DNA from: a virus
Strand: one strand, 5' to 3'
DNA length: 22,149 nucleotides
IMG/VR virus record: IMGVR_UViG_3300017708_000855
Coordinates: 1 to 22,149 of that record
The notes under the pieces: model-generated
Seen by the model: the letters and a program-made list of their open reading frames with translations, nothing else
What the model was told of the DNA's origin: nothing
The model's database searches: none
In this document: one piece after another, positions 1 to 12,900 of the stretch
Layout of the letters: every line of letters begins with the position of its first letter
Position numbering within the stretch: position 1 is the first letter of the stretch
Translations under genes and position numbers: made by a program

Positions 1-1821
1 CTGAGCTTGTGAAAAAGGTACCAGTTGATTTTCTGTTTGAGTACCTAAAGGCTGTGAAAATAGTTGAGAATTACCTTGACCTACAACAGGAGTCTGAATA
101 ATTGGATTTGCAGGCTGTACTGACAGCTGAATGTCGTCTAAAACAAGTTCATATTTTTGTATTTCGCTGTTATAAGTATCTTCAGACTTAATTGCACTGC
201 CGGAAATAGCAAATTGGACTCTTGGTAAAAGACTAGGTACTGATGGATGTTCGCCTAATGCTAATTCAAGCGTTATTCTATAGGTATTTCCTTGGAAAAC
301 ATAGACACCACCGTCATTATATCCGCCAAATGTCGTCTGACCATCATCGTCCATGTCTTTAGACGTATTAAATGTAGTTCTAAAATGAAGTGGATTTGTT
401 TCAGACTGATATGCATTGATAAATGCTGTATCAATATCAGTCGGCCATTGTATTCTTTGAGAGTTCATCATAACGCCGTTGTTCAATGACATTTCCAAAG
501 TAGTAGCTCCAACTGAAGATCCAGAACTATTGTACGCTAATGTAGCACCAGCGTTTAACGACGAATTACCGCCATGTAAACAACTTGGAATACTTTGCAA
601 TCTAGCTTTGTCTGCTCGCCAATATCCGTCAATTATAGACTGTGTAATAAAAAAGCCTAAATCTTCTTGAACACCGACTTCATCGTCATGAGTCAATAGC
701 TCTTGCGCAGCAAGGTCTTGCTCGGCCATTACAGTAAATGTTTGTATACCTTGACTTTTTATACTTGTACGTAATTTTCTAATTTGGCCTGTTTCAGGTT
801 CCATGTTTGCAAATGAAACTTTTGCAAAGCTTACGGTGTTTACACTCTGAGTAATAAACGGTACATTAAAGTCTTGAAAAGAACAAGTAAATCTAGTAGC
901 AGGAAAGCTTTCAAATTCAATATCATCAAACGATATTAATGTACCACCTGCATTTAGATTGGCCGTTCTTGGTGGAGGAATTTCCGTTTTAACTATACCT
1001 TCAATTGGTGGTTGAACTACGGCCTGTGTTTCGCTTATTACATCTACAATAATAGGTCTATACGTAATACTAGATATTGTAGAATATCGGCCTAAGCCAC
1101 TACGCTGTTGTAACGTTTGATTTGATTGAATGTCCGGTACTGCAGCTGTAAACTCTATTTCACCGCCAATCATACTCGATGAAAAGAAACTTGTTGTCGA
1201 CGTAATTCTACCTTGACCCTGTGATGCACCACCTCGTCCCAGAAACGATTCATATTGATAGCTCATGTTCGTCCCTGACAAATTGTATTCAACAGTTGCC
1301 AGTCCACCACTAGGTATAATGTAGTTTTTAATCTTTTCTTGTATAGTAGATCTAGGTGATTGAAGTAAAATAACTTCTGTATCATTTTGCACATTAGGTC
1401 TACATACAACGCGCCTTGTCCATTTGACATTTATAGAATTAGCAAGCGCAGCTGGCACAGCCGATCCGTTTGGTCTTCGTGCAGCAGTACCCGCAATTGT
1501 TACAGTAGCCATTCCACCAGGTGTGTCTGAATAAACATACACAGCAACAACCCTATTAGAAGTGTTTGGTTCTAGATAATCTAGTACTTCGTGGTAAATT
1601 ACATTGCCTGTAGAGTCAGTAACTTCAACAAGAATATCGGTACCAGGTTTTAAGAAGTCTTTGTTTCCACGGAGCTTAAATAAATTTTTACCACCAGTAA
1701 ATCTAGTTGGCATGTCGCTGACTTCAAAATATCTTGAATCGAACTGACTGTCATCTATAAGTACATTTTGTTGTAAAAGGTTTTTGGGTTGATTCCTTTT
1801 ACGCATAAATCTTAGCGGCAT
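1..1821 (-). CDS. Virion structural protein, tail/appendage type (3' end beyond window)
   Basis: I translated this by hand from the ATG at 1821-1819. The frame stays open for 607 codons to base 1, so the C-terminus lies outside the window. A GGAG ribosome site sits 5 nt before the ATG. The N-terminus is basic (MPLRFMRKRNQPK). Residues about 40-112 form a beta-rich domain (KNLFKLRGNKDFLKPGTDIL, then VVAVYVYSDTPGG) of a kind I recall in structural proteins of marine phages. Residues about 300-360 contain FDDIEFES and SFANMEPETGQIRKLRTSIK, which look like a second beta domain. The C-terminal part is Gln/Ser/Asn-rich. There is no signal peptide, membrane segment or catalytic motif. It follows the SbcD-SbcC fusion gene but is separated from it by a 46-nt gap holding a candidate promoter, so it probably starts its own late transcript. 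A role in the baseplate or a fibre is inferred; the exact position in the virion is unknown. Confidence 0.72.
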   Translation of the reverse strand, partial: MPLRFMRKRNQPKNLLQQNVLIDDSQFDSRYFEVSDMPTRFTGGKNLFKLRGNKDFLKPGTDILVEVTDSTGNVIYHEVLDYLEPNTSNRVVAVYVYSDTPGGMATVTIAGTAARRPNGSAVPAALANSINVKWTRRVVCRPNVQNDTEVILLQSPRSTIQEKIKNYIIPSGGLATVEYNLSGTNMSYQYESFLGRGGASQGQGRITSTTSFFSSSMIGGEIEFTAAVPDIQSNQTLQQRSGLGRYSTISSITYRPIIVDVISETQAVVQPPIEGIVKTEIPPPRTANLNAGGTLISFDDIEFESFPATRFTCSFQDFNVPFITQSVNTVSFAKVSFANMEPETGQIRKLRTSIKSQGIQTFTVMAEQDLAAQELLTHDDEVGVQEDLGFFITQSIIDGYWRADKARLQSIPSCLHGGNSSLNAGATLAYNSSGSSVGATTLEMSLNNGVMMNSQRIQWPTDIDTAFINAYQSETNPLHFRTTFNTSKDMDDDGQTTFGGYNDGGVYVFQGNTYRITLELALGEHPSVPSLLPRVQFAISGSAIKSEDTYNSEIQKYELVLDDIQLSVQPANPIIQTPVVGQGNSQLFSQPLGTQTENQLVPFSQAQ

Positions 1822-1856: not shown

Positions 1857-1870
1857 AATAATAAATATCA
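1857..1870 (-). promoter_or_regulatory. Candidate phage promoter, intergenic AT-rich motif copy 1
   Basis: On the minus strand the site reads TGATATTTATTATT. It shares its first 11 bases with copies 3 and 4 (18353-18367 and 20209-20223). The core ATATTTAT lies 39 nt before the start codon at 1821. The TGA at its left end is also the stop codon of the SbcD-SbcC gene. It sits in one of only four gaps over 20 nt in the window. On the plus strand it reads AATAAATA, one base from the T4 late-promoter core, so its direction is uncertain. Confidence 0.45.
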
Positions 1871-4800
1871 AGTCGAAATAGAACTAAACCCATCCTTAAC
1901 GTCGATGGTAAGTAAAGAGTCCGGCATATCCTTCATAATATCAATGTGAGATATAATAATGATAAAGTCAAACAGAGTCTTCATATATTCGAACATTGTA
2001 GCAATGCACTGCATGTTATCACTATCTAAATTACCAAAACCTTCATCAATTGCTATAAAATTAGGTCTTGGTAGACTACTGATCTGTATCAGTCCGATGC
2101 GAATTGCTAGTGAGCTTATAAACTTTTCCATACCTGAAGCTAGTGAAAGGTCCCAGGGTTCATCTGAATACTTGATTAACGTATGAATGTTTTTACCATC
2201 GGTCTTGAAATGTATAGTAAAGTCGACTATCTGTGATAGTATATCGTTAACTTCAGTTTCCAAAACAGGCAGACTATCACTTATGATTTCATACGGTATT
2301 CCGTCCCTTTTAATTGCCGACATATATAAATCATAGGCTTTCATTTCAAATTCTAAAGCATGAGCCCTGGTCATTGTACTAAGAATATTGTCTATGTCAT
2401 ATTGCGCACGCTTTCCATCAGATGCTGACTCAATCTTGTCTTCTTGTAATTGTGAAAGTTCATCTTCAATAGCGTCTAATTCAAGTTCTAATTTTTCGAT
2501 CTTACTTCTACATTCAGTATTATGTTGTATGTCGTCTTTAGACTTCTCGTACTTTGTAATATTATCGTTGGCTATCTGGATCTGTTCAAATTTACTAGTC
2601 ATCTCGTCATTCAACTGTTGTAACTTTACAACTAAGCGCTCTGACATAATCTTTGTACCGGATTTCTTAAGTAAAACTTTATTATGCATTTCCTTAGTTT
2701 TACTAGCATCAGCAACCGTCTTCAACTGTTGATTAATTTTTGAGAGATCTTCTGTGGCTGTTGTCAGCTTACCTTCTAAAATAGGTAAACTTTTCTTAGC
2801 TTGCATTGCGACTTTAACAAACTCGTTATTACAACAGAACTCGCATTCAGGATCATATTCGTGAGATTCAAGATGGCTAATAGATTTCTTATCCTGATCT
2901 ATTTTTACCTTTAGTGTAGATACTTCTTTAACAAGATCGGGCTTCTTAAATGTATAGGATTCAAGTAATTTTAGATTATGATCAACGTTTTCAATATCAA
3001 TTGTAGATAGGAAGCTTTCACATTTAGCAAGTGTCTGTTCATGCTCGTTGTTCTTATCATTTAGTTCCTCGATATTACCTTTTATAGTATTAATGTCACC
3101 AGTATAGTGTTTGATATTATCATATTCAGACTGTACGTCGACATGCTCAATGTCTCTCAAATTTGCAGACATACTACTTATCATTTCTGCAATAGCCAGC
3201 TTTTTGCTCTTGTACTCATTGACTGAATTGTCTATAGATTTGACAGATTCCTTAGACTCATTTAGCTTTTCTTTGGCCTGAGATAGTAAACCGGAATAGT
3301 CAGTTCTCTTAAATTCCTTTAATAGTGACCTAATATCGGAAACTTCATCAGATGCCAGATCCTGTAATTGCTCGAACACTGTGATGTCTAAAAATTGTGA
3401 AAGCAAATCTTTCTTTTCTGTTTGGCCTTTGTCGATAAAGCCTGTAGCAGCGTTCTGCGATGACAGTGCAGTTAATGTAAAATCGTCATAGCTTCCTAGA
3501 TATCGACGAATGATAGAATTAGTTTCTGATCTCTGTTCACCGTTTAACGTTATCTTTTCGCCTGAGTCGTCAATTGTCCAAAAGTTTACATCACATTTTA
3601 CTCTACCTGAAGCTCGTCGTTTAGCCTTTCTTTCGATATAGAAAACTTGTTCATTAGCTTCAAACTTAAAAGTACATGAAAATGTATCTCGTGCATTGTT
3701 CATGACACTGTCAGCACGAGTCGTTCGACTACATCTGTCAAATATACAATACGTAATAGAATCCAACAGAGCAGATTTACCAGTATGGTTCTTAGCAAAA
3801 AGACCAATCAGACCATCCATCGATTCAAAATCAAGTTTATTATTTTCACCATAACTAAACATGTTTGAAAATTCAAATGACAAAGGTCTCCAGACAACGT
3901 GCCGAATTGTATCTGGTACAATTATGTCTTTGTTTAACTTTTCATTGATCTGCAAGACTTTATCAACTGTTTCTGCATCTGCACTGTGAACCCTGTCTAA
4001 ATATGACTTGATCAACGTGTTTTGATATTCAACGTCTCGAGTATTAATAGCTCTTGTAGATGTCTTGTTTTCCAAATCCTGCTTTAGCAGGTCTTGTTTT
4101 ACTTGAACAATATCAATAGGTGTACAGGCTGTTCGAACATTAGTTATGATAGATTTCAACTCAGCTTCAGTTGTGTCAGTATGGAATATCTTTATTCTAG
4201 GATTTACAGGAATATCGGATATGTCGCCTATTTTACCAGACTCTACATAAATTGTATAGTAGGCATATGGGTTATTGATTTCATGAAATTCAGGCTTTAT
4301 TGTATTTAAGTCCCAAATAGTATATCCATGGTTCTTGTAACTTTCTCCAAAGTTTTGTTGTATTAAACTACCTGGATAGTAAATTCGCCCGTCGTTGTCA
4401 ACAAATTGTCTTTTGTGTATATCACCTAATAAAGCCAAGTCAAAGCCATCGAAGTCCGAAGTTTTTACAGAATCAGAACTTATAGTATATCCGACATCAG
4501 TCTTAGAATTGTACACAGGCCCATGATATAGAGCAATATTGATTTCATTTGTACCGCACTTTGGCCAATCTTGTTTATCTGTTGCTATTTCAAATACTGA
4601 AAAGTCTATGTTACCAAATTTATAAATTTCAGCTTTATTAAGATAGTGTAAGTTATCGTGATTTATGTTATTAATGATCGGTGAAAGTGCATCAAGCCTT
4701 GACTCATTATTTAGATTTGCATCATGATTACCCATAATAAGAACTGTCGTTCTCAGTTCAGCAAGGTTAAATAAAAACTCTGAAGTAAGATCAATCAGCT

Positions 4801-4981
4801 CAGGGCTAATATCAATTTTACTATGAACAATGTCTCCGCCGATATAAACTAAAGTAGACTCGGGTGTATCGGCAACAGCCTGATATAGTTTTCTAAATGC
4901 TTCACGATATTCCTTGTGACGAGTAAAATTTCTAATATGTATATCTGCAATATGTAGAATGTGTGTCCATTTATCTTGCAT
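1868..4981 (-). CDS. Fused SbcD-SbcC (Mre11-Rad50; T4 gp47-gp46) recombination nuclease-ATPase
   Basis: One 1037-residue frame joins two proteins that are separate in T4. Residues 1-~330 are an Mre11/SbcD calcineurin-like nuclease: D13-x-H15, GGD 48-50, GNHD 84-87, H153 and GDIH 186-189, which are the usual metal-ligand motifs. Residues ~365-1037 are a Rad50/SbcC ATPase: a degenerate Walker A (AKNHTGKS, 396-403), long coiled coils around a zinc hook CEFC (713-716), the signature ASGMEKF (948-954), Walker B FIAIDE (975-980), D-loop NLD and H-loop SH (1011-1012). The family resects and trims DNA ends for recombination and recombination-dependent replication. The frame is uninterrupted and both active centres look intact, so this is a real fusion and not a misread stop. 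The ATG overlaps the primase gene by 11 nt, with GGAG 10 nt upstream. Both Walker A glycines before GKS are replaced (A396, H399). Confidence 0.93.
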   Translation of the reverse strand: MQDKWTHILHIADIHIRNFTRHKEYREAFRKLYQAVADTPESTLVYIGGDIVHSKIDISPELIDLTSEFLFNLAELRTTVLIMGNHDANLNNESRLDALSPIINNINHDNLHYLNKAEIYKFGNIDFSVFEIATDKQDWPKCGTNEINIALYHGPVYNSKTDVGYTISSDSVKTSDFDGFDLALLGDIHKRQFVDNDGRIYYPGSLIQQNFGESYKNHGYTIWDLNTIKPEFHEINNPYAYYTIYVESGKIGDISDIPVNPRIKIFHTDTTEAELKSIITNVRTACTPIDIVQVKQDLLKQDLENKTSTRAINTRDVEYQNTLIKSYLDRVHSADAETVDKVLQINEKLNKDIIVPDTIRHVVWRPLSFEFSNMFSYGENNKLDFESMDGLIGLFAKNHTGKSALLDSITYCIFDRCSRTTRADSVMNNARDTFSCTFKFEANEQVFYIERKAKRRASGRVKCDVNFWTIDDSGEKITLNGEQRSETNSIIRRYLGSYDDFTLTALSSQNAATGFIDKGQTEKKDLLSQFLDITVFEQLQDLASDEVSDIRSLLKEFKRTDYSGLLSQAKEKLNESKESVKSIDNSVNEYKSKKLAIAEMISSMSANLRDIEHVDVQSEYDNIKHYTGDINTIKGNIEELNDKNNEHEQTLAKCESFLSTIDIENVDHNLKLLESYTFKKPDLVKEVSTLKVKIDQDKKSISHLESHEYDPECEFCCNNEFVKVAMQAKKSLPILEGKLTTATEDLSKINQQLKTVADASKTKEMHNKVLLKKSGTKIMSERLVVKLQQLNDEMTSKFEQIQIANDNITKYEKSKDDIQHNTECRSKIEKLELELDAIEDELSQLQEDKIESASDGKRAQYDIDNILSTMTRAHALEFEMKAYDLYMSAIKRDGIPYEIISDSLPVLETEVNDILSQIVDFTIHFKTDGKNIHTLIKYSDEPWDLSLASGMEKFISSLAIRIGLIQISSLPRPNFIAIDEGFGNLDSDNMQCIATMFEYMKTLFDFIIIISHIDIMKDMPDSLLTIDVKDGFSSIST

Positions 4982-5873
4982 AAAGTTTATACTCCATAAG
5001 CTTTGAAAATGTTAGCTTTTCTGTATTGTTAATTAACTGTTGGACGGCTTCTTGACCCAATTCATTTGGATCTTTACCAGGTAATTCAACGATATATGTA
5101 TTGAGTCCATAAGACAAAAACTTCTCTGCATGTGATATGGCCATGGTCAAAGCATCGTTGTCTAGTATCAGATTTATACGCGGCGGTTTATTAGATACGA
5201 TGGCTTGAATTAGTGACTTTGAAAGAGTTTTTCCAAACAAAGGTATTGTATTATCACCTGTAGATATTGCGTCAAATGCACCTTCAACTATGTTAACTGG
5301 TTCAGACCAGTTTATGAATAACTCCTGACCAACAATGTCACGACCGCATGGTGGGTTCAAGAACTTATAGTCAGTTTCATAAAAGGCCCTTGTAGTAAAA
5401 TAGTTTAGATTAGCATCTGCGTCATAGCTCGGTATAATGATCATGCCACTGTATGACCCTGACTCAGCATAGCCGATATTGTAACGTAAAACATCATACA
5501 TAGACACATTACGCTTCATAATATATCGTACTGCATTCATATAATCTGGACTTCTTTGATTGCCCTTGTATAATGGTATAAAGCCCTTGGGTAATGACAA
5601 TTCATTATCGGATTTGACTTTATATTTACCAGGCCTCAGAGTTCTAAAGAACGATATAATATTAGTTGGTGCGTCTAATTTTTTAGCCAAAGATACTAAG
5701 CTACGACCTTTAGATCCACAAACCCAACAGTGCCATGCATGTGAAATTAAGTTGACATTGAACTTGCGTTTTGGATGTTTACAGAAGGGGCAATGGAACT
5801 GAAGTTCATCATTCTTAGTTCTAGGTTTACCTAATAAACCCTGTAGTGCCTTTTTAATGTCAGTATAATTCAC
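4971..5873 (-). CDS. DNA primase, zinc-binding plus TOPRIM (T4 gp61 / DnaG type)
   Basis: This 300-residue protein should make RNA primers for lagging-strand synthesis. An N-terminal zinc ribbon uses C28-x2-C31 and C49-x2-C52, with H33 and H48 nearby. The TOPRIM domain shows VEGAFD (E197), the metal-binding pair D238-x-D240 in LILDND, and KDPNE at 267-271. There is no helicase domain, so it is shorter than a T7-type primase-helicase. The start is GTG at 5873-5871. An ATG two bases upstream (5875-5873) is out of frame and followed at once by TGA. I see no clear ribosome site in the 17-nt gap before it, so expression may be low. Its last codons overlap the start of the SbcD-SbcC gene and contain that gene's GGAG. 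Together with the nuclease before it and the fusion after it, it forms a DNA-processing cassette inside the structural genes. Confidence 0.9.
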   Translation of the reverse strand: MNYTDIKKALQGLLGKPRTKNDELQFHCPFCKHPKRKFNVNLISHAWHCWVCGSKGRSLVSLAKKLDAPTNIISFFRTLRPGKYKVKSDNELSLPKGFIPLYKGNQRSPDYMNAVRYIMKRNVSMYDVLRYNIGYAESGSYSGMIIIPSYDADANLNYFTTRAFYETDYKFLNPPCGRDIVGQELFINWSEPVNIVEGAFDAISTGDNTIPLFGKTLSKSLIQAIVSNKPPRINLILDNDALTMAISHAEKFLSYGLNTYIVELPGKDPNELGQEAVQQLINNTEKLTFSKLMEYKLYAR

Positions 5874-5890
5874 ATTACAATATAATCAAT

Positions 5891-6334
5891 TTATTTTGAT
5901 TCGGAAAGTAATTTCTTACTAATATCAGGTGGTAATTTTACTGATAACCATTTTCTAGAACCAATGCAATCATTGTAATAATCGTCACGTAAAATAACTT
6001 GTTTTCTGTGTTGAATGTTTTCTTCTAGATAGTTAACCTGACCTTTTGTTTTAGCCATGATCAGTATTTCAAACTTAAACTTAGACTTGCCGTGCTTGAC
6101 AATATCCTGATTCAAATGTTTAGAACTTCCAGTATAAGTACGCCAATCCGATTCAGTACGTTTAACGGTTCGTCTGGCTTTACCTTTCTTTTTTATCCTG
6201 CGGGTCTTACCAAAATATTTACGGCCAATATACTTTTTATCGGTTAATTTATTTGTAATTTGGTATACAAAACCGTAATAGCTTTCAGGAACTTCGTGTA
6301 AAATTTTACCTTGATATAACCAGTGACTTGTCAT
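5891..6334 (-). CDS. GIY-YIG family endonuclease
   Basis: The protein has 147 residues when started at the ATG at 6334-6332. This overlaps the previous stop as TAATG and is preferred over an in-frame TTG 12 nt upstream (6346), because it gives translational coupling. The GIY-YIG signature is split as usual into GFVYQ (21-25) and KKYIGRK (33-39). Further expected elements are R38, a basic linker (FGKTRRIKKKGKARR, 41-55), ESDWRTYTGS (61-70), a catalytic-type Glu in NYLEEN (E104 or E105) and N121 in YYNDCIG. The family cuts DNA with one metal ion. Small stand-alone members are common in marine phages and may act as homing or degradative endonucleases. No DNA-binding domain of the I-TevI kind is attached. 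The next gene starts 17 nt downstream. The family call is firm; the biological role is not. Confidence 0.8.
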   Translation of the reverse strand: MTSHWLYQGKILHEVPESYYGFVYQITNKLTDKKYIGRKYFGKTRRIKKKGKARRTVKRTESDWRTYTGSSKHLNQDIVKHGKSKFKFEILIMAKTKGQVNYLEENIQHRKQVILRDDYYNDCIGSRKWLSVKLPPDISKKLLSESK

Positions 6335-8052
6335 TAAGTATCCCAACGAACAACGAATGTTTGATCGTAATGTTCAACCTTTCGTAACGGTCTTCCCAAC
6401 TTGCCAATTGCCATTAGCGTATAATCGTCGTCATATAAACCGATAGTCGTGATATAAGGGTCCCAGTTGCTAGATGTAACGAAGCCTTTGATAGTAGGAT
6501 GTTCTGCAGTTGCATCATCAGACAGTATACTGGGATTCTGAGACATGTTAAATTCGCGATCAGAGATCATGCACACATATTCATGTTCAGTAAGATTTAC
6601 AGTGTTCTTAAAACCAACTGATGCGTCTTTATAGAAATTATCGTACGTATGAATCTTACTAGTAATGGTGGCAATACCTTCGTCGTAAAATATATTACCT
6701 AATTGTATACTCTTGTAGTTCGCGTAAAGTTGTGAAGGTTTTGCACCTAAATCATCGGTCCAGACGTCAAATCTATATAAGTCAAATCCACCAAAAGCAA
6801 ACAGCTTTTTATCTTTAGGTATCGGATCAGGCGCCGTTACAGCGTCGTATTGTGATATGTCAGGGTCAACATTTGCCCATCCTGCGCCTATACTAATGAC
6901 TCTATCTTCAGGATTAAATAGAGTAGCATCGGCTGCTGATATAAACCCTGCAAGAGTCAGGGTCTGTGATGCACCGGTTGAATGATTATCTACAGTAACA
7001 GATGCTCTGAATGTTGACGATATTCTAACAGTTACAGTTCCAGTTTGTTTGTTTCCAATTATAGTACTCATGTCTATATTTGTTTCAGCACCGTTTTTGA
7101 ACGTCTGTAGCCGTAACGAGCCTCCAAGTCCAGATAACTTAGTTATATATACGAGTCTGGCGAACAAGTTCTGTGGATTACTACCAGCATTATCAGCAGG
7201 ACCTATTTGCCACAGAGTTCGATATTCGTTATTACCGGGATCAAAGGCAGTATCGGGTTTAAAAGAAGCAATTATAGTCAAGCCTTGCCAATGACTGCAA
7301 TTACCAATCTTTCTCGGTAGTTTATCAATCCAACCAAAACTAGCTGAAGGCTGAGTAGTTCTTCGCCAAAGTTCAGTTTGACCATCCGCAGTTGTAACAC
7401 CACCAGTACCCGTTATTCTAAGAAAGCTACCTGTATAATTATCATGAACGCTATATGGATCGTTATATTCAATAGTGCCTGACGTGTTAAGTACATTATA
7501 GAACTTGCCGCGCGCTTGCTGAGTATAAGTCTTGTTAGTATATTCTTCAATGGTTCGACTTTGTTGATATAAATCGTAATGAGCCGATACATTTGCAGAA
7601 AAAACTCGATCAGTTGAATATGTAGACAGACGGCTAGATCCGTCATCGTAAGCAGCATTTAACAGTCGACCTTCACCGTCATCAACTATAGTAATTGAAC
7701 CTGAAGTCATTGTAAAACTTCCAGGCTTAATGCCTTCACCGGACATCAAACTAGGAATACTGATTACTTGTACAGTATCATCCCAACCTCTAGGTGCCTT
7801 ATAATTGTCAGTAAACTTTGGACGATAAAAAGGAGCGACTACAGCAGAGTGTATATCTCGTTTAGTAAAGCCGTTAGTAGTAAGAGGTTCGGAGCCAGAC
7901 GTATACTCAGATTTGCCATAAATTCCTTCATAGCCAAAAACCGAAACTCCATCAAACGAACCCGATCCACCAACAAGTTGTACATCATACTCCTTATGAG
8001 CTGTATGGTTCGTAATGGACTTGGCTGCTATACGCTTAAATGATCCAGCCAT
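6334..8052 (-). CDS. Tail/appendage structural protein with LamG-like region and marine-phage C-terminal module
   Basis: This 572-residue protein starts at an ATG with AAAGG upstream. Residues about 240-460 look like a concanavalin/LamG beta-sandwich: GLTIIASFKP, LWQIGPADN, GGSLRLQTF and FGGFDLYRFDVWTDD. Such domains often bind sugars. Residues about 460-500 contain GNIFYDEGIATITS, followed by a C-terminal module (about 501-572) with FNMSQNPS, DPYITTIGLYDDDYTL and KLGRPLRK. The last module is shared with the gene directly upstream (8063-9298) and is a type I recall at the C-terminus of structural proteins in marine phages. I infer a baseplate-peripheral or fibre role with host-surface contact. 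Its stop overlaps the start of the GIY-YIG gene, so structural and nuclease genes are translationally coupled at this point. Confidence 0.7.
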   Translation of the reverse strand: MAGSFKRIAAKSITNHTAHKEYDVQLVGGSGSFDGVSVFGYEGIYGKSEYTSGSEPLTTNGFTKRDIHSAVVAPFYRPKFTDNYKAPRGWDDTVQVISIPSLMSGEGIKPGSFTMTSGSITIVDDGEGRLLNAAYDDGSSRLSTYSTDRVFSANVSAHYDLYQQSRTIEEYTNKTYTQQARGKFYNVLNTSGTIEYNDPYSVHDNYTGSFLRITGTGGVTTADGQTELWRRTTQPSASFGWIDKLPRKIGNCSHWQGLTIIASFKPDTAFDPGNNEYRTLWQIGPADNAGSNPQNLFARLVYITKLSGLGGSLRLQTFKNGAETNIDMSTIIGNKQTGTVTVRISSTFRASVTVDNHSTGASQTLTLAGFISAADATLFNPEDRVISIGAGWANVDPDISQYDAVTAPDPIPKDKKLFAFGGFDLYRFDVWTDDLGAKPSQLYANYKSIQLGNIFYDEGIATITSKIHTYDNFYKDASVGFKNTVNLTEHEYVCMISDREFNMSQNPSILSDDATAEHPTIKGFVTSSNWDPYITTIGLYDDDYTLMAIGKLGRPLRKVEHYDQTFVVRWDT

Positions 8053-9946: not shown

Positions 9947-12900
9947 TTATCTTATAGTAATTTCTGGTGCCGTTATACTTGGACCGTTGGTCTGTACAAC
10001 CGGTGTATTTGGATTGGTTTCAACTACTTCAATAGCAGCTTTGATATTAGGCATTAAACCTTCAAAGGTTATAGTTGGATCGGAACTTGCGTACGATATA
10101 ATTCCACCAATAGATCCAGCGATAGTTCCTAGCTTACAGCCATTGTATTGTAGATTTTGTATAGCAAGTGGAGTATAGTCTTGTACTTCAGCTTCAACTA
10201 ACGATCTACTTACAAAGGAACCAGTTGCGTCAGTAGTATATTGTATTCTCTTTTTAAGAATAGACTTACGACCTGAATAATATACTGGAACATCTAAACT
10301 TATAGTATCGCCTATTCGATAATAGCCTGTGTTTGATGTTACAAAACTAGAAGGATGTATTCTAGTACCCTCATATGAATAATCATATCCAAAAATAGAT
10401 GTAGCATCTATATCGGCAATGATAGCTCCGTTAAATCTACCAGTTGGATCAGGGTCATCGGCCAAAGCTAAGGTTTGAATAGGTACTGAACCAGTTGCAC
10501 GAACTATATTAGGTACAGATGCAGCAGTGTTATTACCATAGCTGACGTTTTGCATTGACTCTGAATACTGCTTAACTGTATTTCGCTCAAGTAAAGTTGG
10601 CGCTACAAGTAGACCGACCTGCTTGATTGACCTTGCAGGTAGCATTTTGTCAATTTGCTTAAACAAAGACTTGTCAAAATACTTTAACACGTTCATATAT
10701 GCAGCAAAAGTCAAACGATTGTTGTACTTTTTCCAATAGTAATTTCTAATGTTCCTTAATTCAGCATATTCGCCTCTGTATCGATCTCTTGGATTTCCAA
10801 CAAAGTCATCAAATGATGTTCCGCCTATTTCATGTGCCATGTCAAGGTCAATTTCATGTGTAGGACTAAAATATACTCCGACCAAAGCGCTGTCAGGACC
10901 GGCTAAATTAAGTGAGCTTGATACAGAAGATGAATTTTGATAAAGTTCAGTTGCAGAATTAGCAGGTGCTATTCTAATCTTGTCACTGATAGCCGTGTTA
11001 CCCGCTATATCAGGCATACATGTATAGTAGGTTTCTTCTTCGTATGCATAATCACTAGTTTCAACGCCAGTAAAGCCTGAAGCAGTTGCTGTCAACGTAG
11101 TTGATCCTGATCCTGGGCCAAATGGGTGCGTAGGATATAAGTGACTAGATGAAATAAAACTATTACCAGTACCTATATCAGCAACTACATTATCAGTACC
11201 GAATGTATAACGTGTTATTAAGTCAGTAAATGACGCCGTATAACTATTACCTTCAATAGATAAAGGTGATAGTGTATGATTGTCGTAAGCATCAGAGGCC
11301 AAAGCAGTATAATGTGGAGCACTTACATCAGTATGGAACCAGCTTCTGAATTCCTGAATTGATCCTGATATACCGGAAGGTCTAGTAGTAGTTCCATATG
11401 AAAATCCAAATGAGCTAGTACCAATAGTTACAGCCTTCTCATAGGTATGAGAACCAGGAGCTCCATATTCCATGTTCCAGTTGCCATTATTCTCATTTTG
11501 TGATGCACCGGCAGGTACTGTTATTTCACAACTTGCAGTATGTGTTATTTTAGCATTTGAATATTCAGCAGACTTCTGCGCAGATGCTTTAAGTAACCAA
11601 TCAGCGCCGCTGTCGTTCTTTCTTTTAGCATCTACACCGGCTCTTGTAACCTGTATATTATACCAATCATTGTCAAAAAATGGTAAAAATGGTGAAGATG
11701 CTGATAGCATATTGCTACTAGCATTACTTTGAGACACTTTACTGTAATATAAATGTAATTGTCCATGATTACTCATAGACGAGTTAGCATTTGCGGCACT
11801 AATGTGAGGTTCTAACGTTAATCCCCAATAAGGTGTAGAAATTAGACAACTGGCAGTCTGAGGATTAGTAGTATTAATCAACTTAGGGTTAATTCTTAAT
11901 TCATATCCGTCAGGTGCAGGTGATCTAGAATCATAAGACTGTGTAAGAGCACCGACAGGGCACTGTATAGCACTTCCTGTTCGCATTCTAATACTTCTAT
12001 TGAACTTTTGATAGGTTCTATAAGTATTAGCAGTCTGTACTTTACTTTTTCCACCATATTCTACAATTTGTAGTAGACTATTAGGCATACCATAAGTTGC
12101 AAGTAATGCCTTTATGCCCCTTTCAGTACCTCGAGTCTTGAGAAGATGTGGTAAATTGTTAATTGTTCTGTTCCAGATCTCCTTTGTTACATCTGCAGTA
12201 GGTATTTGATTTGAATCAGCATTAACAGTATATCCACTAGCAGTAAAGGGTGTTCCAGCATAATATGACCACAGATCATCAATAGAATAGCCTGATTGAG
12301 GTTCCCAGCCAAGACTAGAAAGAGCATGATATACGACATCCTTACTTAAACCGACATCAAGTTTTTCATTTCTGTTGTATAATCTATTGATATGGTCAAC
12401 ATAAGTCCAAACTTGATCAAAGTGCTGGCCAATCATGTTTACAAATGTCAAATATGGAGCATTTGAAGTATCAATTCTAACATGAAGTGGAATGGCCTTT
12501 TCTAAACTATGATCGTTATCCTGATCATAATCAATAGCATCCAAACTACGAGTTGCAAACCACTGAGTAGCTAATGTAGAATCTACTGTAGCATTTGTAT
12601 ATGGATATGTTGAATTAGTTTTAGGCCAAGTGGACTGATAAAAATAGCCCATTGAACTAGTTTCTGTAGAATGTGAGCTAAAATATAGATGCCTTTCATA
12701 GTCGTCAAAACCCGTTACAATAGCATCAGACTTTTGTGTATACAGCGTTACGTTTTTGCTTGAATGATATGAGCCTGAAGATACTACATTATTTAATGTG
12801 CCTATACTTGAACTATAATATTCAAGTAATTGCATTTTATACTTAAAATTATCTAGTCTTTCTTTTGCAGAGCCAAAATGTACGAATGATTTGAATAATC

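Follow-up and report, generated by a model that had tools for sequence, protein, structure and literature searches.

Gene content and domain make-up of the locus

The window, positions 1 to 22,149 of IMG/VR virus record IMGVR_UViG_3300017708_000855, contained one long gene whose two halves resemble Mre11, a nuclease that processes DNA ends, and Rad50, the ATP-driven partner of Mre11. This gene, its parts and the genes around it are listed here; AF2 stands for an AlphaFold2 model of the fused protein.

1..1821, minus strand: gene after the fusion, 607 aa, which runs off the contig; homologue in 89 relatives' loci
1868..4981, minus strand: fused Mre11 (SbcD/gp47)-Rad50 (SbcC/gp46) gene, 1037 aa, ATG to stop (Pfam and PHROG profiles)
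1871..3895, minus strand: Rad50-type part, residues 363-1037 (Pfam, PHROG, motifs, AF2)
2834..2845, minus strand: zinc hook C-E-F-C, residues 713-716
3896..3931, minus strand: true linker, residues 351-362 (AF2; near-constant length in relatives)
3932..4033, minus strand: helix-loop-helix, predicted Rad50-binding domain of Mre11, residues 317-350 (AF2)
4094..4981, minus strand: Mre11-type phosphoesterase and capping region, residues 1-296 (Pfam Metallophos, AF2, alignments)
4971..5873, minus strand: DnaG-type primase, zinc finger plus Toprim (PHROG_47, E 2.6e-40)
5891..6346, minus strand: SegE-like GIY-YIG endonuclease beside the primase-fusion unit (Pfam SegE_GIY-YIG, E 1.1e-32)

An earlier note on this DNA had described a single uninterrupted frame of 1037 residues at 1868-4981 and had left the strand unstated. 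We found that frame on the minus strand, reading from 4981 down to 1868; the plus strand across the same interval contained many stops. Pfam placed Metallophos at residues 7-190 (E 1.6e-12) and AAA_23 at residues 372-592, and the PHROG profiles for SbcD and SbcC covered residues 1-342 and 285-1036, respectively. The NCBIfam SbcD and SbcC models also matched, both under their cut-offs, and the closest solved structures by sequence were SbcC, Rad50 and Mre11/SbcD chains. Because a frame of 1037 codons carried both domain profiles, a chance origin was ruled out. The Mre11-like part was N-terminal and the Rad50-like part was C-terminal in the one frame, which is the order found in fusions of the Mimivirus R555 type.

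The primase gene overlapped the start of the fused gene by 11 nt, and a primase was located directly upstream of the fusion in 103 of the 107 relatives that had a primase match. The two genes are probably co-translated. A match to the SegE-like endonuclease, which may be the product of a homing gene, was present in the loci of 46 relatives and was upstream of the primase among the cases listed. Homologues of the 607-aa gene, whose product is likely to be structural, were mostly just downstream of the fusion among the cases listed. Pfam and PHROG identified baseplate genes (gp25 and gp6-like) upstream of the fusion, and the contig was therefore assigned to a tailed phage. The T4-type late promoter TATAAATA was not found on the strand of the fused gene; promoter-like sites numbered 42 versus a mean of 30 in shuffles.

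Eleven long records were searched with profiles for additional copies of the two genes. The SbcC profile yielded one strong match in each record, located in the fused gene, and two more weak ones in Microcystis phage Mel-JY01. The SbcD profile yielded one match each, likewise in the fused gene, with the interrupted gene of LR756508 being missed. Thus, apart from the two weak Mel-JY01 matches, no second, separate SbcC or SbcD was found in these 11 records, the completeness of which is unproven. A RecA/UvsX-type recombinase was present in 8 of the 11.

Fused relatives and the reality of the joint

Including that of the window, we collected 109 sequences in which a single frame spanned both halves (a few of the loci overlapped on the same contig), and 88 of these were less than 95% identical to each other. 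The protein of the window also matched one deposited frame of Microcystis phage Mel-JY01 over its full length. The idea that an assembly or sequencing error created the joint has next to no probability, because the same joint was observed in 109 sequences from many assemblies, as well as in the deposited Microcystis phage genome. Furthermore, the sole frameshifted relative (L025) was broken in the coiled coil, away from the joint. For the lineage, the 109 fused sequences refuted this idea. The earlier note's proposal of a phage-borne single-chain Mre11-Rad50 was borne out by the same recurrence of the joint, and neither a stop or frameshift between the halves nor a family of relatives that all carried split genes was found.

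The loci that had no spanning frame were of several kinds. Five (L028, L033, L113, L115 and L118) were on contigs cut at an end. In L025, a frameshift at about 6022-6040, in an A-rich coiled-coil region, split the fused gene; it is probably a sequencing error. In the 484-kb phage LR756508.1 (L002), which matched the protein of the window, the gene was interrupted just after its GDIHKRQ motif by an insert of about 1 kb (about 10585-11620). The insert contained a frame that encodes cysteine-rich repeats together with a TnsA-like endonuclease domain (PF08722), and a comparison with Rfam introns gave no match; it is possibly an intron or a homing insertion. One further locus (L119, 3061-5849), from a Bacteroidales-binned contig, carried three genes in a row, for a primase-like protein, an HD-type protein and an SbcD-like protein with a GHIH motif, the last as a separate gene; no SbcC match was found within the 10.8 kb examined. 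This row is possibly a pre-fusion arrangement. Also among these loci was that of Tenacibaculum phage pT24 (L003), a distant fusion that was matched only in part. Plasmid relatives gave partial matches only, none of which reached 80% coverage.

The view that such a fusion is unusual or new was not supported. A first scan of IMG/VR found 30 related stretches and a second at least 579, and Mre11-Rad50 fusions were published in 2011 (PMC3175470).

Catalytic motifs, linker and descent

The Mre11 motifs of the fusion were DIH (residues 13-15), GDIVH (49-53), GNHD (84-87), H153 and GDIH (186-189). Residues D13, D50, H53, N85, H86, H153 and H189 were present in 109/109 fused sequences. Six of the seven Mre11 metal ligands and the catalytic H86 were present in the fusion, and the position of Pyrococcus furiosus H206 was occupied by aspartate (D187). 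In motif V, GHxH was thus replaced by GDIH, located inside LGDIHK, with aspartate in 109/109 sequences; in an alignment with solved SbcD, GDIH was opposite GHLH. The earlier note had stated that all Mre11 metal motifs came first. The motifs were indeed present and N-terminal, but one metal ligand of motif V was changed. Based on its sequence, the nuclease may be altered owing to this substitution. In 14 of the 109 sequences (L063, L068, L069, L071, L073, L075, L082, L085, L088, L090, L094, L109, L112 and L114), motif I was DIQ instead of DIH, which changes a second metal ligand (H15 to Q).

In Mimivirus R555, histidine takes the place of the third motif II aspartate, and H206 is likewise replaced, by aspartate (PMC3175470). 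Both of these residues were found in 109/109 fused sequences. The motif II histidine also occurred in split phage genes (GDLFH), and it is found in archaeal and eukaryotic Mre11 as well; because it is shared in this way, this histidine, judged by sequence comparison, is not peculiar to the fusion.

The second half contained the Rad50 motifs, namely Walker A (residues 398-403), Q509, a signature (949-952), Walker B (979-980) and H1012, and a coiled coil at about residues 534-890. The signature was SGME, where SGGE is usual. The Walker A lysine K402 was present in 109/109 fused sequences and the Walker B glutamate E980 in 108/109. In the zinc hook, C713 was found in 109/109 and C716 in 108/109. 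The ATPase motifs that the earlier note had placed after the nuclease were therefore all found (Walker A and B, Q-loop, signature and H-loop), as was its CxxC hook, CEFC at 713-716.

The AF2 model was built from an alignment of 34 related sequences, a diverse set with only 29-45% identity to the protein of the window, and it had a mean pLDDT of 83; the pTM was only 0.47, which makes the relative placement of the parts unreliable. Residues 297-310, after the Mre11 part, were poorly ordered. They were followed by helices at 317-331 and 336-350 (block pLDDT about 87-92), and the first Rad50 strand began at residue 363. The linker of about 35 residues (330-365) that had been proposed for this protein was thus predicted to be mostly helix-loop-helix (317-350), followed by about 12 true linker residues (351-362). 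The spacing between N350 and W364 was 13 in 105 of the 109 fused sequences. In the Thermotoga maritima complex, 9-12 residues were estimated to bridge the 28-angstrom gap between Mre11 and Rad50 (PMC3175470), and the length of the fusion linker, behind a retained helix-loop-helix, matches this estimate, as in R555-type fusions. The simplest view, taken from the model, is that the fusion preserves the ordinary Mre11-Rad50 arrangement, because its linker is short and fixed and follows an intact helix-loop-helix. The earlier suggestion that the fusion changes how the complex opens and how the nuclease is gated was unsupported, since these same features fit ordinary geometry.

Trees of the Rad50 and Mre11 halves were made from phage fusions, split phage genes and E. 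coli, with Mimivirus R555 left out. In the Rad50-half tree, 27 fused sequences formed one clade (99/93), apart from the split phage genes and E. coli, and the fusion of Yersinia phage GN1 grouped with split genes of Bacillus phages (98/86). The Mre11-half tree had the fused set on one side of a branch, with weak support (85/50). GDIH and SGME marked the main clade of fusions as far out as Tenacibaculum phage pT24 and the 735-kb phage LR756501. The sequences suggest that the main fused clade is likely to have a single origin, and that the GN1 fusion probably arose independently. The single origin is likely rather than proven because the signature of L117 was not resolved in the motif comparison, GDLH also occurs in a single split Vibrio phage gene, and the trees have several long branches. 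In a fold search (BFVD), giant-virus fusions (Tupanvirus, Harvfovirus, Yasminevirus, Catovirus and others) ranked first, above phage proteins; Mre11-Rad50 structures were also among the closest folds.

Proposed role and comparison with known systems

The reading that we regard as highly probable is that the fusion is a single-chain, 1:1 equivalent of gp47-gp46, of the R555 type, that processes DNA ends for recombination-dependent replication. It is based on the domains, the joint seen 109-fold, the near-invariant catalytic residues, the linker, the folds, the lack of a strong second copy in the 11 long records, the recombinase and the primase. Two fused chains, held together by their Mre11 parts and their ATPase heads, would form an (MR)2 dimer that corresponds to M2R2. 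In each chain, the helix-loop-helix would be docked at the coiled-coil root, with the 12 linker residues reaching across a short distance to the first ATPase lobe. As in ordinary Mre11-Rad50, the nuclease would be gated as ATP closes and opens the heads. By analogy with gp46/gp47 of T4, from which we infer the replication role, the fusion would resect phage DNA ends for recombination-dependent replication, and the adjacent primase would serve the forks that result from resection.

Other readings were weighed against this one. It is unlikely that the fused lineage is mechanistically distinct, with the linker, the H206-to-Asp change and SGME having co-evolved and with the coupled primase making one resection-priming unit. 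We consider it quite unlikely that the H206-to-Asp change has altered or weakened the nuclease half, so that the fusion mainly bridges or senses ends and another nuclease resects. GDIH in all 109 fused sequences and the DxQ for DxH in motif I of 14 relatives fit such a change; however, the window retains every other ligand and the catalytic H86, aspartate can bind metal, and the strong conservation suggests that catalysis is retained. A main role in host DNA breakdown or counter-defence, rather than in replication, seems more doubtful still. T4 gp46/gp47 are annotated as needed for host-DNA degradation as well as for recombination, but the near-fixed pairing with a primase and the recombinase found elsewhere in most of the long records argue against this role.

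It is well supported that the fusion belongs to an already described kind, as single-chain Mre11-Rad50 has been known since Yoshida, Claverie and Ogata (2011) reported it for R555 of Mimivirus and for twelve further proteins, with a Bacillus phage among the sources (PMC3175470). These authors further suggested that phages may be the carriers of R555 homologues found in aquatic metagenomes, where primases were among the neighbouring genes (PMC3175470). Direct genomic support for that proposal comes from the present contig, which belongs to a tailed phage and carries baseplate genes and a primase along with the complete fused gene, and from many contigs like it; single-chain Mre11-Rad50 is common in aquatic phages. 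The present analysis adds to this the genes around the fusion, the count of its fused relatives, the constancy of the linker and the pairing of the motif changes. Among the papers that our literature search covered, none describes this phage lineage at a later date. In addition, a natural single chain of 1037 residues with a fixed 1:1 stoichiometry would be convenient for structural work on what is otherwise a two-protein complex.

Among the known systems, R555 and the other giant-virus fusions are single chains with the same domain order as the fusion of the window, and R555 shares its Asp for H206 and its His in motif II (PMC3175470). R555 is longer (1351 aa versus 1037), and the hosts of giant viruses belong to another domain. 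The Tupanvirus, Harvfovirus, Yasminevirus and Catovirus chains are about 1215-1389 aa long, with 19-25% identity in the fold alignment. Microcystis phage Mel-JY01 has a full-length fusion (WWT39521.1, 38% identity), for which 'AAA domain containing protein' is the sole annotation. A primase and a GIY-YIG gene are upstream of it and, unlike in the window, a small ORF separates the primase from the fusion.

Single-chain Mre11-Rad50 is also found in Yersinia phage vB_Yru_GN1, Tenacibaculum phage pT24 and the 735-kb phage LR756501. The pT24 and LR756501 fusions group with the lineage of the window, whereas that of vB_Yru_GN1 has GHIH and SGGQ and thus neither GDIH nor SGME. In the vB_Yru_GN1 locus (L126, 5010-7808), the gene is annotated from a start within the nuclease region, and the annotated product therefore lacks the first motifs. 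Phage T4 gp47-gp46 has the same two domains in the same order on the transcribed strand and a CxxC hook, but it is encoded by two genes with 46.2 and 46.1 between them, unlike the single gene of the window; its motifs are GHFH and SEGE, and its gp46, with 560 aa, is shorter. E. coli SbcD-SbcC has the same two activities, encoded by adjacent genes in the same order. In contrast to the fusion, these genes are separate, SbcC is longer, and the motifs are GHIH and SGGE.
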